Below, piece after piece: positions 2,454-37,509 of a DNA stretch of 42,117 nucleotides. Numbering within the stretch: the stretch's first letter is position 1; every line of letters starts with the position of its first letter. The DNA lies in the IMG/VR virus record IMGVR_UViG_3300050821_002614, positions 1-42,117 of that record; one strand, given 5' to 3'. Source of the DNA: a virus. Below the pieces are notes generated by a model. That model did not search any database. It worked only from the letters and a program-made list of their open reading frames with translations, and was not told where the DNA came from. The translations under genes were made by a program, and so were the position numbers.

Positions 2454-3461
2454 TTGGCTAAAGTAGTCACGAGTCAGGGTATCCAGGAATTTGTCTCTTC
2501 CGGCAAATTCGAGCAAGTCAAAAACGATCCGCCGCGAAAGAAAGCGGATGACGCGCCGCCGCTGGAGGTCAAAGACAAGCCACCGGTGGCCGACACCAAG
2601 ACGCCAGAGAAGAAGGAACACGAAGAGGAGGAGACCTTAAGCGAGAAGATCCGCGCGCTGATGGAATCGGACCCGGAGCTTGCCGAGTACGTCACCAAAA
2701 AGAACGCCGCGATCAATCGCAAGCATAAGGAAATGCGTGAGGCACGCGAAGCCGCCGAAGAGGCGGAACGCTTCGCCGAGAATCAGTATAACGAACGGCG
2801 TCTATCAGGTGAACGACTGTCGGCGGCCGAACGAGAGCTAGCGGACTTGCGAGCCAAGGCCGCACCGCCGGAGAAGAAAGAGGAACTCAAGAAACCAGAT
2901 CCTAAAGAGTTTTATGACGATAAAGGGCAATTCAAGGCGTTTGAGTACGCAGAGGAACTAGCCGCTTATTCAGCGAATAAAGCGGTAGCGGACGATAGGG
3001 CCAAGCAGGCCGAAGATCAGCGCAAAGCGGAACTCGCGGCAGCTGAAAAATTAGCGCGTGAGCGCGTGGCGGAAGCCACCAAGACCTATCCGGATTTTGC
3101 CGAAGTGATGGCGGCCAGCGATTTGCAAACGCATACCGCGGTGCTGCAATACCTGTCGGCCAGTGAGCACATCGGCGAGGTGAGTTATTACCTCGCGAAG
3201 CATCCGGAGTTTGTTGAACGCATCAACAAATTGCATCCGCTGAAAGCGATCGCGGAAGTCCGCGACATCGAAAAGACCTTTGAAAAGCCGCCGGTGAAGA
3301 CCGAAGAGACTACCTCGGAACTACCGGTAAAAACGTCTAGCGCGCCCGCGCCCATCAAACCCCTGTCATCCGCCAGCACCGTGAACACCAACACGGACCC
3401 GGCAAAGATGACTTATCGGGAATTGAGGGCCTACGAACGCGCCCGCGCCCGTCGGCGCTAA
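2454..3461 (+). CDS. Scaffolding protein, putative
   Basis: 335 residues, extremely rich in Lys, Glu and Ala and predicted mainly helical, with a long charged segment at about residues 75-215 that could form coiled coil. The C-terminus is basic (ELRAYERARARRR), as expected for the coat-binding end of a P22-type scaffold. It starts with TTG (MAKVV) after AGAGG. Its place between portal and coat, as in P22, is the main support. It would direct procapsid assembly and leave before packaging. Assignment rests on composition and gene order, not on a recognised motif. Confidence 0.75.
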   Translation: MAKVVTSQGIQEFVSSGKFEQVKNDPPRKKADDAPPLEVKDKPPVADTKTPEKKEHEEEETLSEKIRALMESDPELAEYVTKKNAAINRKHKEMREAREAAEEAERFAENQYNERRLSGERLSAAERELADLRAKAAPPEKKEELKKPDPKEFYDDKGQFKAFEYAEELAAYSANKAVADDRAKQAEDQRKAELAAAEKLARERVAEATKTYPDFAEVMAASDLQTHTAVLQYLSASEHIGEVSYYLAKHPEFVERINKLHPLKAIAEVRDIEKTFEKPPVKTEETTSELPVKTSSAPAPIKPLSSASTVNTNTDPAKMTYRELRAYERARARRR

Positions 3462-3484
3462 CAACACTTTAGGAGTCTTCCCAC

Positions 3485-4861
3485 GTGGCAAATAATTTGC
3501 TGACGATGAGCTATATCACTAACGAAGCTCTAGTCGTCCTGGAAAATGAGTTAGTGATTGCGAATCGCGTGGAGCGCCAATACTCCAACGAATTCGCCGA
3601 GACCGGCGCGAAGGTCGGTAACACGGTGAGCATTCGCCGGCCGCCGCGCTACAAGGGCACCTATGGACCGCCCCTGAATGTGGAGGACAGCAACGAGACC
3701 TACGTACAGATCCCGCTGAACTATCAGTTCCACGTCGATGTACAGTTCACCACGCAAGATCTTGCACTCTCCATGGACATGTTCAAGCAACGCATCTTGC
3801 GGCCGCAAATTGCCACGGTTGCGAATCGCATCGATTCGGATACCGCGCAGTATGCGTACCTCAATACCGCGGCATCGCTGGGTACACCGGGCACCAGCCC
3901 CAATAGCTTGAAACTCTTCACCGATGCGCGCGCGATTCTGGCCGCGGAATCCTGCCCGAAACAGGGCGAGAAGAACGCAGTCTTGGACCCCATCAGCATG
4001 TCATCGATGGTCGCGACCGTGCAGGGGTTGTTCAATCCGCAAGCCAAGATCAGCGAGTATATCGATAGCGGTATGATCGCACGCGAGTTCGGCGGCCTCG
4101 ATTGGTGGGAAGACCAGAATATTCCGGTGTTCACCACTGGGGCCGGCGGCAACGGTGCCGCGAACTCGGCGATTCTGACTACGCCGATCGCGGGTACGGC
4201 GTTCCTTACCACCGGCTGGGCGCAGTCCGGCACGGTATCAACGCAAGGCTGGCAGAACAGCACCGCGGTGGTCAGTGTCGGTGATGTGATCCAGTTCGCT
4301 GGCGTCTATCCGGTCAATCCGCAGAACCGCTTGCAGTATGGAAAGACCTTGCGGCAATTCGTGGTGCTGCCACCGGGCGGCTTTGTCACTCCGGCGAACG
4401 GTGCAGCGGCACCAGGCTTGACTTACGGCGCTGCGACCCTGGCCGCGGGCACCTTCAATCCGATCACCGGTCTCTATACCTCCAGCGGCACCGGCACCCT
4501 GACGTTGACCATTGGGGACGCCGTCATCAGTGGCGGACAGTTCCAGAACGTGACGGTAGCGCCCGCAAGCGCCGCCATCATCACCTTGAACGGTTCCACC
4601 ACCCCGGCAACGAATGGCGGCTTGGTGAGTCCGCAATCGCTGGTGTTCCACAAGTATGCGTATGCACTGGCGTTCGCGGACTTGCCGCTACCGCGTGGAG
4701 TGGAATACGCGGCGCGTGCCTATGACGATGAGGACGTGGGCATGAGCATTCGCTGTGTCACGCAATACACCATCAACAACGATTCTGAGCCCACGCGGGC
4801 GGATGTGTTGTATGGCCCGGCGAGTCTGTATCGCTCTCTCGGTCTCCGGGTTGCCGGTTAA
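3485..4861 (+). CDS. Major capsid (coat) protein, P22 type
   Basis: 458 residues; GTG start after AGGAG. The N-terminus (LLTMSYITNEALVVLEN, then VGNTVSIRRPPRYKG at about 43-57) is characteristic of the P22 coat superfamily with an HK97-like fold. The segment at about residues 255-390 is rich in Gly, Thr and Ala and probably forms an inserted beta domain. It follows scaffold directly and begins the structural run. Residues 4-37 are closely similar to residues 54-85 of the twin-arginine-signal protein at 38795-39133, a partial duplication. Confidence 0.92.
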   Translation: MANNLLTMSYITNEALVVLENELVIANRVERQYSNEFAETGAKVGNTVSIRRPPRYKGTYGPPLNVEDSNETYVQIPLNYQFHVDVQFTTQDLALSMDMFKQRILRPQIATVANRIDSDTAQYAYLNTAASLGTPGTSPNSLKLFTDARAILAAESCPKQGEKNAVLDPISMSSMVATVQGLFNPQAKISEYIDSGMIAREFGGLDWWEDQNIPVFTTGAGGNGAANSAILTTPIAGTAFLTTGWAQSGTVSTQGWQNSTAVVSVGDVIQFAGVYPVNPQNRLQYGKTLRQFVVLPPGGFVTPANGAAAPGLTYGAATLAAGTFNPITGLYTSSGTGTLTLTIGDAVISGGQFQNVTVAPASAAIITLNGSTTPATNGGLVSPQSLVFHKYAYALAFADLPLPRGVEYAARAYDDEDVGMSIRCVTQYTINNDSEPTRADVLYGPASLYRSLGLRVAG

Positions 4862-31782: not shown

Positions 31783-31857
31783 TGGTTCAGGGAGTAGGGT
31801 TCGAACCTACGTTCTCAGGTTCAAAGCCTGATGTCTTGCCGCTTGGACGATCCCTGA
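31783..31857 (-). tRNA. tRNA-Gln (anticodon UUG)
   Basis: Full cloverleaf on the minus strand: acceptor TCAGGGA/TCCCTGA, D arm GTCC...AAGAC, anticodon stem TCAGG/CCTGA with loop CTTTGAA (anticodon TTG), variable loop GAACG, T loop TTCGAAC, discriminator A and an encoded CCA. It may supply glutamine CAA decoding; several structural proteins are Gln-rich. It is probably transcribed with the minus genes upstream. Confidence 0.92.
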
Positions 31858-35963: not shown

Positions 35964-36734
35964 GTGGCCAAACTATCAGAACTATTAGCGGCTGAAAAGA
36001 CGCCGAACGGCGCGTGGAATCAGCTGCAAGAAGACACTACCAAAAAGTTTAAGAATTCGACGCATTTCTTTGATGGGCATTCAAAAAGCCTGTCGATGAT
36101 CGAAGATAATCCCGGTAACGTCGCGATCCAGGACCAGGCGCGCGAGGAAAAGCCGGTGACCACCACGGTGTACGACACCCTGGAATATGCGCTTTCGATC
36201 TTTGCGCGCGCCGAGGACTTGCAGTATCAAAAGAACCTCACCAACCGCCAGGCCGCTGGCACGGTGATGTGGAAGGGCTCGCCGCTTCTCAAGGATTTGC
36301 CGATTGATGAGCTATTGGGTTTGGAGGCGCGATTGACAAAAATCCGCGCGATCTACGCCGATATGCCGACCTTGGACGCATCCAAGCACTGGACCCCGGA
36401 CACGCAAAGCGGCGCGCATGTGTGGGTCACCAAGTACACCGAGGAGACCACCAAGACCGAGAAGCAAGTCGTACCGGTGGTGATGTCGGCCGCAACCAAG
36501 GAGCACCCGGCGCAAGTTCAGCCGATCTCTAAGGACGTGGTGGTGGGCAAGTTCACGGTGACGCGGCGCAGTGGTGCCGCCACCGCGGTGCAGAAATCGG
36601 AAGCTATCAAGCGGGTGGATGAACTCTTAATCGAGATCAAGCAAGCGCGCATGCGCGCGAATGAGACTGAAGTTCAGGCGGGTTCCATTGCGGCGGTGTT
36701 GGTGCCGCTGCTACTGGAGCCGTTACAGAGTTAG
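35964..36734 (+). CDS. Conserved protein of unknown function (256 aa)
   Basis: GTG start after GAAGGGG. Alpha/beta protein with STHFFDGHSKSLSMIE, then YDTLEYALSIFARAEDL and EHPAQVQPISKDVVVGKFTV. It resembles a conserved bacterial and phage family of about 250 residues that I know only as a domain of unknown function. It has its own promoter and directly precedes the permuted-tRNA element. Confidence 0.68.
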   Translation: MAKLSELLAAEKTPNGAWNQLQEDTTKKFKNSTHFFDGHSKSLSMIEDNPGNVAIQDQAREEKPVTTTVYDTLEYALSIFARAEDLQYQKNLTNRQAAGTVMWKGSPLLKDLPIDELLGLEARLTKIRAIYADMPTLDASKHWTPDTQSGAHVWVTKYTEETTKTEKQVVPVVMSAATKEHPAQVQPISKDVVVGKFTVTRRSGAATAVQKSEAIKRVDELLIEIKQARMRANETEVQAGSIAAVLVPLLLEPLQS

Positions 36735-36772
36735 GCCAAGCGTTAGCGTTAGGTTTTGCGTCAACTGAATGG

Positions 36773-37028
36773 AGTTAGCGTATCGCCTACAGCGTTTGAC
36801 TAAGGTGCAAGGTGAATACTAGTCATGTCGGCAGACTTGAAATCTGCAGACAATCCTTGGAAAAACGGGTTCGATTCCCGTCGGCCCCTCCATTATATGG
36901 GGCCGTCGTCTAACGGCAGGACACCGGGGGTTATAGCGTTAGTGTCAACTACTTCACTTTGTAGGGAAACCATAGAGGGCCGGCACGGCAGGCACGCACG
37001 GCTGGCCCTTTATCCCATTTGAATAACT
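36773..37028 (+). ncRNA. Candidate permuted intron-exon gene: circularly permuted tRNA within a split group I intron
   Basis: tRNA halves are in reverse order. The 3' half has an anticodon-stem strand CCTTGG (36855), AAAA, T arm 36865-36881, acceptor CGGCCCC (36882), T and CCA (36890-36892). After TTATAT comes the 5' half: acceptor GGGGCCG (36899), D arm 36908-36922 and CCGGGG (36924). The acceptor halves pair perfectly, and CCGGGG pairs with CCTTGG. Outside lie group I-like elements also split in permuted order: GGGAAACC (36964) with P4 GGGA/TCCC and P5 AGAGGGCC/GGCCCTTT (36974/37004), P3 CACTT/AGGTG (36955/36803), P7 TGACTA/TAGTCA (36797/36820), a P9-like hairpin (36831-36847), and P6 TAACT/AGTTA (37024/36773). 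P8, exact splice sites and anticodon are not resolved. Confidence 0.6.
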
Positions 37029-37065
37029 GATGAGCGGCGGAGTAACACACCTAAAGGGGCAACAC

Positions 37066-37509
37066 ATGAACATCGATGAGGCAATCAACAAAGCGGCGGA
37101 TCATATCGAACAGTATCCCGAGTCCTATCACTTCGGGCAGGGCATGGTGATCGACAGAAAGTATCAGGGGTTTGGCCCAGATCCTGGACCCGGCGGCCCG
37201 CACGCATGCATGCTGGCGCGCATCGGCGAAATGGCCGGGGTGCCGGTGGGCGTTGGTTGCGATACGGTCGCGCGGTATATCCTGTCCTCAAGCGCCGGGG
37301 ACTTCTACGAAGCGATCCGCGCCGCCACCGGCAGCAAAGCTGGCCGCCATGATCCGGTACACCATGCACCGACCATCCCCGCGGCCATGCGCAAGGTGGC
37401 TAAGAAATATGAAGGGATACCGATCGGGGTGCGGCAGATTTTCGACGCGCCGCCGAGTGAAACCTTAGCGCCGCACTACCGCGTGTTTTCCGTCCGCATC
37501 ACGGCCTAG
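37066..37509 (+). CDS. Hypothetical protein, paralogue A (147 aa)
   Basis: ATG after AAAGGGG. NKAADHIEQYPESYHFGQG, then ACMLARIGEMAGVPVGVG and PAAMRKVAKKYEGIPIGVRQIF. The next gene is a clear relative with the same order of motifs. The fold and function are unknown. It begins the late-side small-gene run after the permuted-tRNA element. Confidence 0.65.
   Translation: MNIDEAINKAADHIEQYPESYHFGQGMVIDRKYQGFGPDPGPGGPHACMLARIGEMAGVPVGVGCDTVARYILSSSAGDFYEAIRAATGSKAGRHDPVHHAPTIPAAMRKVAKKYEGIPIGVRQIFDAPPSETLAPHYRVFSVRITA

Follow-up and report, generated by a model that had tools for sequence, protein, structure and literature searches.

The question raised by this locus is why the two halves of a tRNA stand in swapped order between two protein genes of a phage, and what kind of RNA they form. 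The window, by which we mean the whole analyzed stretch of 42,117 nucleotides (IMG/VR record IMGVR_UViG_3300050821_002614), belongs to a P22-like temperate podovirus in which integrase, portal, and terminase are present. An earlier note had read the element as a circularly permuted tRNA housed in a split group I intron; the permuted order held and recurs at dozens of virus loci, whereas the group I part did not, as the Rfam family Intron_gpI finds no match there. The reading we tentatively favor, at slightly less than an even chance, is that the window carries a Y-RNA-like tRNA mimic, a small noncoding phage RNA, rather than a group I permuted intron-exon (PIE) element that splices itself.

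The element occupies the intergenic stretch 36735-37029, between an upstream ORF (35964-36734, DUF7873) and a downstream ORF (37030-37509). Read directly on the plus strand, the 3' half comes first: the T arm ACGGG-TTCGATT-CCCGT (36865-36881, also covered by a sub-threshold local match to the Rfam model tmRNA_permuted) runs into the acceptor 3' strand CGGCCCC (36882-36888), followed by U73 and CCA (36889-36892). A six-base spacer, TTATAT (36893-36898), leads to the acceptor 5' strand GGGGCCG (36899-36905), which is complementary at all seven positions as previously claimed, and to the D arm GTCT-AACGGCA-GGAC (36908-36922). An anticodon-stem analogue closes the tRNA-like core; its 5' strand CCGGG (36924-36928, from sequence and fold) extends to CCGGGGGTT (36924-36932), and its 3' strand CTTGG (36856-36860, from the centroid fold) can extend in the window to AATCCTTGG (36852-36860), both on the plus strand.

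Neither half has an ordinary partner, as had been supposed: a search upstream for the normal partner half returned none. ARAGORN calls no tRNA at the element, nor does Rfam at threshold. Among 2,611 ordinary tRNA 3' ends from the same loci, seven are followed by a 7/7 acceptor partner with a D arm, against 5.3 expected from random pairing of ends with downstream sequences; tandem ordinary tRNAs or chance were rejected as the source of the order by the partner check and this mixed-pair control. A covariance model, R1, built from 34 other permuted units with the window left out, matches the window at 36813-36945 with 46.3 bits (E 5e-7). Similarity searches with the window element and its close relatives against named phages and plasmids gave nothing useful, and we found no Ro60/TROVE gene and no RNA ligase in the 42-kb record. 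The same phage carries an ordinary tRNA-Gln(TTG) gene at 31783-31857 on the minus strand.

The flanks of the element are themselves structured. In the minimum-energy fold, which is more stable than that of shuffled sequences (z -3.3), the outer stem is a flank helix, H, of 11 bp formed by TGCAAGGTGAA (36806-36816) and TTCACTTTGTA (36953-36963), a helix matched by 42 of 1,000 shuffles. Upstream of it lies the motif CGTATCGCCTACAGCG (36779-36794), identified by pattern scan and comparison and partly common to the loci L282, L588, L567, and L004 (CGTATYRCC, mostly then ACAGC). The 3' part contains a hairpin with an anticodon-like loop, GCAGA-CTTGAAA-TCTGC (36831-36847), which is not found in L282 or L588, and a further hairpin with the loop GCACGGCAGGCACGCACGG lies downstream (36972-37013), its loop common only to L282 and L588; all of these features are on the plus strand. 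No single join gives the element an anticodon loop with U33 (p 0.37), while 32 of 57 other permuted units rebuild an anticodon arm at p<0.05. Inspection of the joint by eye alone revealed no bulge-helix-bulge motif; the flanks form other helices. Short direct repeats (GCGTTAG..GTCAACT) are common to the far-upstream and downstream flanks.

With L282 and L588, the only other close members, the window makes up a group (group C) marked by helix H and the loop GCACGRCAGGCACGYACGG, the downstream hairpin loop being found nowhere else among 602 loci. All three have CGTATCRCCT upstream and a 5-bp anticodon-stem analogue, whose 3' strand, CTTGG in the window, reads CTCGG in L282 and CCCGG in L588 (and ACCAG in L567). 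The flank helix stands at the same place in L588 (11 bp) and in L282 (8 bp), in letters quite different from those of the window: across the group, the strands are TGCAAGGTGAA/TTCACTTTGTA, CGCGAAGC/GCTTCGCG, and AGTGCGTGCTG/CAGCACGCACT. In these relatives, the letters of the helix have been replaced and its pairing kept. The L282 and L588 records also gave no Ro60/TROVE gene.

Beyond this group, pattern scans of IMG/VR and a descriptor script showed that virus contigs hold dozens of different permuted units, nearly all unannotated; cultured carriers include the phages Serratia BF, Cronobacter GAP32, and Ruegeria RpAliso, and single phages may hold units in tandem (L312, L300, and L307). The literature searched, which took in no preprints and few subscription papers, contained no report of permuted tRNAs in phages. 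An alignment of 34 units has 87.8% of its cells paired (slid controls reach 35-46%) and scores 0.717 for covariation versus 0.215 when shuffled; the flank helix H1, which played no part in sequence selection, shows changes on both sides at 7/7 pairs. Model R1 has at least one match in each of the 30 carrier records searched whole, although ordinary tandem tRNAs may account for the weak matches over positions 32-112. Pairing from flank to flank is similarly widespread, the best helix reaching at least the 95th percentile of mixed flanks in 17 of 39 units and extending up to 24 bp. The spacers of other units are mostly AT-rich with TAT at the end, TAT having formed part of one search pattern. 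Several candidates were set aside: a phage-encoded RNA ligase is not a universal factor (RtcB in 3/32, PF09414 in 13/32, and PF09511 in 7/32 carrier records, with none of the three in several records of 135-209 kb), the motif CGTATYGCCNTACAGC alone occurs mostly at unrelated places, and ARAGORN run on spliced constructs proved too permissive for discrimination. The large RNAs GOLLD and ROOL were seen to share tRNA clusters with permuted tRNAs (L270:7545-8034; L337:5852-6477).

One set of units (group A) shares a flank layout that can be written [H1]-UACAGCAA-n-|3' half ... 5' half ACG|UAAAA-n-[H1']. An exact TACAGCA stands upstream in 11 of 40 permuted units from loci that were not selected by this motif, against 3 of 2,790 ordinary tRNAs. 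Once joined, group A arms are complete and fit their discriminators (Asp GTC/G73, Asn GTT/G73, Phe GAA/A73, and Thr TGT/A73). The same module, with a hairpin immediately ahead of CAGCA (mean helix score 13.8 versus 6.5 shuffled, combined p 5e-14), occurs as an intron of 38-50 nt inside phage tRNAs of ordinary order, such as the tRNA-Lys of BF. Seven cultured phages (BF, CBB, SNUABM_50, GAP32, XbC2, Kaldavass, and D479) have the insert at one common site; the first six keep the loop CTTTTAA (Lys UUU), and their exon bases 27-28 and 42-43 covary (CG/CG, GG/CC).

The tRNA-Lys(UUU) genes of these six jumbo phages and the related gene of Vibrio phage D479 deserve a description of their own. Each has a 45-49-nt insert (49 nt in BF) at tRNA position 28/29, the removal of which restores the anticodon arm; the insert contains a hairpin and, in most of these genes, the CAGCA motif (L619:68-195, that is, Serratia phage BF KY630187 at about 296567-296694; further L632-L637). 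The inserts look like a class of tiny introns, unlike group I introns and unlike those of Lak phages. Lak megaphage tRNAs carry introns that are likewise unclassified and likewise sit in phage tRNA genes (PMC6784885); a pattern search found no copy of the tiny UACAGCA intron in Lak-A1, whose Thr intron carries a tRNA-like insert, and the Lak-A1 introns were rejected as members of the same class. In Erwinia phage pEa_SNUABM_50, an HNH endonuclease gene is annotated directly after the intron-bearing tRNA-Lys (L633:321-362), which makes a link to homing possible.

Permuted units, left unannotated in BF, are conserved among phages of Erwinia, Cronobacter, Xanthomonas, and Pectobacterium. In BF, GAP32, XbC2, and Kaldavass, the permuted acceptor is capped by a tetraloop and lacks CCA, and these copies are therefore probably not matured to tRNA. 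Permuted tRNAs of Eneladusvirus and Mimasvirus (L555:2531-2661, L627, L628, and L629) show varying acceptor tetraloops, AUCG, UUCG, CGAA, and CUAG, again with no CCA.

A further set of units, group B, brings in the Y RNAs, which mimic tRNA and are found near Ro60 in bacteria and phages. Group B units score 30-42 bits against the Rfam family YrlA (a Y RNA-like family with a threshold of 69), and their joined ends give discriminator-consistent anticodon arms (Ile GAT/A73, Thr TGT/A73, Gly TCC/U73, Phe GAA/A73, Val TAC/A73, and His GTG/C73). A TROVE (Ro60) gene is present in 6 of 37 carrier records and adjoins the RNA in five of them (L276, L300, L307, L089, and L285). In L658 (G014:326500-335500), a Ro60 gene (TROVE plus vWA), four to five permuted units, and RtcB follow one another within about 7 kb, an order that resembles the bacterial rsr-yrlA-rtcB repair operon. 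In RpAliso (L654, OR257569), where we found no TROVE match, two permuted units and two flank modules devoid of tRNA occupy 3195-3868, all unannotated and downstream of a permuted tmRNA; the unit near 3343-3481 would give a tRNA-Ile (GAT) if joined. The two tRNA-free modules are copies of the group B flank module around short non-tRNA inserts (L654:3668-3755 and 3778-3868), which would become small RNA circles if the module joins its ends. Permuted tmRNA genes lie beside permuted tRNA-like units at L654:2895-3116 (RpAliso, unannotated) and at L435:6275-6516.

How, then, should the window element be explained? The earlier proposal of a natural group I PIE element, in which P3- and P7-type pairing of the flanks would splice out a circular tRNA, has some pairings to its credit. 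The P7-like GACTA/TAGTC surrounds TGCAAGGTGAA, which pairs with the other flank in the manner of a P3-P7 pseudoknot; an exact pair, GTCTG/CAGAC, lies at the same place in L588, and the window also contains GGGAAACC. PIE constructs have the order intron 3' part, exon, intron 5' part, and the window shares this order but differs in that no group I core is detected. The flank pairings are thus partly real, and the core that had been read into them is unsupported. P7 is weak and not kept in L282, and the weak spot already conceded for P8 is genuine: P8 and J8/7 are absent, the two strands proposed for P7 being only 17 nt apart. At least a partial model match would be expected of a permuted group I intron; Intron_gpI (RF00028) gave none, whole or partial, at the window element, L282, or L588 at E up to 10, although the same search found real group I introns of ~50-60 bits elsewhere in three carrier phages. 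The flanks of most relatives, about 70-120 nt in all, are too short to hold a group I core. Because of the missing Rfam match, the missing P8, and the short flanks of most relatives, we reject the group I reading as very improbable. A relic of a permuted, two-piece tmRNA strikes us as just as remote. The best Rfam match of the element is indeed tmRNA_permuted, over the T arm and acceptor; it reaches 27.9 bits, which is below threshold, and spans only 58 of 213 model positions. The two-piece tmRNA (RF04321) has the same order of acceptor 3' part, spacer, and acceptor 5' part, and permuted tmRNA genes neighbor permuted tRNA-like units in L435 and RpAliso, but the window has a full tRNA D arm with its stem, and no tag reading frame or pseudoknots were seen.

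The main rival is a true permuted tRNA gene that is spliced, because many relatives rebuild a tRNA: the flank helix would bring the ends together, an activity other than group I would cut both joints, and the ligated halves would form a circle, to be opened into a working tRNA by RNase P and 3' processing. The complete arms of group A, the recurrence of its module as a tiny intron (in seven cultured phages, where the anticodon is mostly kept and exon changes compensate one another), and the CCA at positions 74-76 in the window all speak for it, whereas the window offers no joint that gives a U33 loop and the motif arrangement of group A is missing from its flanks; for the window we consider it unlikely, albeit less so than the other rivals. 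Permuted tRNA genes of algae and archaea have bulge-helix-bulge joints cut by the splicing endonuclease (PMC3978253, PMC3218864). They likewise place the 3' half first, with a short spacer and flanks that pair at the joint; the window differs in belonging to a bacterial phage, in showing no bulge-helix-bulge (by eye only), and in having an anticodon loop that cannot be rebuilt. This last feature, along with the direct repeats in the flanks, would also suit a functionless remnant, either a dead rearranged tRNA gene or a leftover of tandem duplication, which we regard as improbable given the intact acceptor, T, and D arms and the flank helix and downstream hairpin kept in the diverged L282 and L588.

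We read the window RNA as a tRNA mimic because its build, an upper tRNA half set on a stem of paired ends with no anticodon loop, is that of YrlA. YrlA-type bacterial Y RNAs (RF02553) have the same permuted T arm, capped acceptor hairpin, and D arm on an end-paired stem, and no anticodon arm; the window fold has this architecture of a tRNA-like module on paired ends. It differs from YrlA in its CCA and AT-rich spacer in the acceptor loop, in its extra downstream hairpin, and in the absence of Ro60 from the record (the protein may come from the host), and its score against the YrlA model is 18.8 bits (E 0.11; gathering score 69). In this reading, the core of the window RNA is a circularly permuted tRNA-like fold whose upper half comprises the T arm, an acceptor hairpin closed by UCCA and the six-base spacer, and the D arm, while a stem that the 5' and 3' parts of the same RNA build together takes the place of the anticodon arm: the 5-bp anticodon-stem analogue, an internal loop, and then the 11-bp flank helix. 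The order, the pairing, the lack of an anticodon loop after any single join, and the replaced helix in relatives are shown directly; beyond them, we infer that the RNA is transcribed and acts by mimicry, that its upper half would be recognizable to RNase P and tRNA modification enzymes, and that the stem may be the site for a protein partner, as it is for Ro60 in Y RNAs. Besides the low YrlA score, the missing Ro60/TROVE gene in all three group C records, and the small size of that group, a mimic has against it that its CCA sits exactly at 74-76 and that its spacer is AT-rich, as in a tRNA meant for maturation.

Judged by sequence comparison, the window element belongs to a broad, hardly annotated set of virus RNAs whose build is related to that of bacterial Y RNAs. 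It is possible, though we would not call it probable, that tailed phages harbor widespread permuted tRNA genes and ~38-50-nt introns whose joining machinery is neither group I nor group II nor the archaeal endonuclease, with one branch tied to Ro60 and RtcB and the window as a member. Should the joined forms be real, tRNA splicing in bacteria and their phages would follow an undescribed route, and there would be a first hint as to why Ro60, Y RNAs, and the RtcB ligase sit together, as the Ro60-linked phage RNAs read as complete tRNAs after end joining; if the reading of the Ro60/RtcB branch is true, bacterial Y RNAs would be related to the precursors of permuted tRNAs. Direct testing is possible in the cultured carriers Serratia BF, Cronobacter GAP32, and Ruegeria RpAliso, the last growing on R. 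pomeroyi DSS-3. Should the window RNA be no more than a tRNA mimic, it would still carry the Y-RNA-like build into small temperate phages that lack Ro60, and it shows that a whole layer of phage RNA genes escapes annotation programs.
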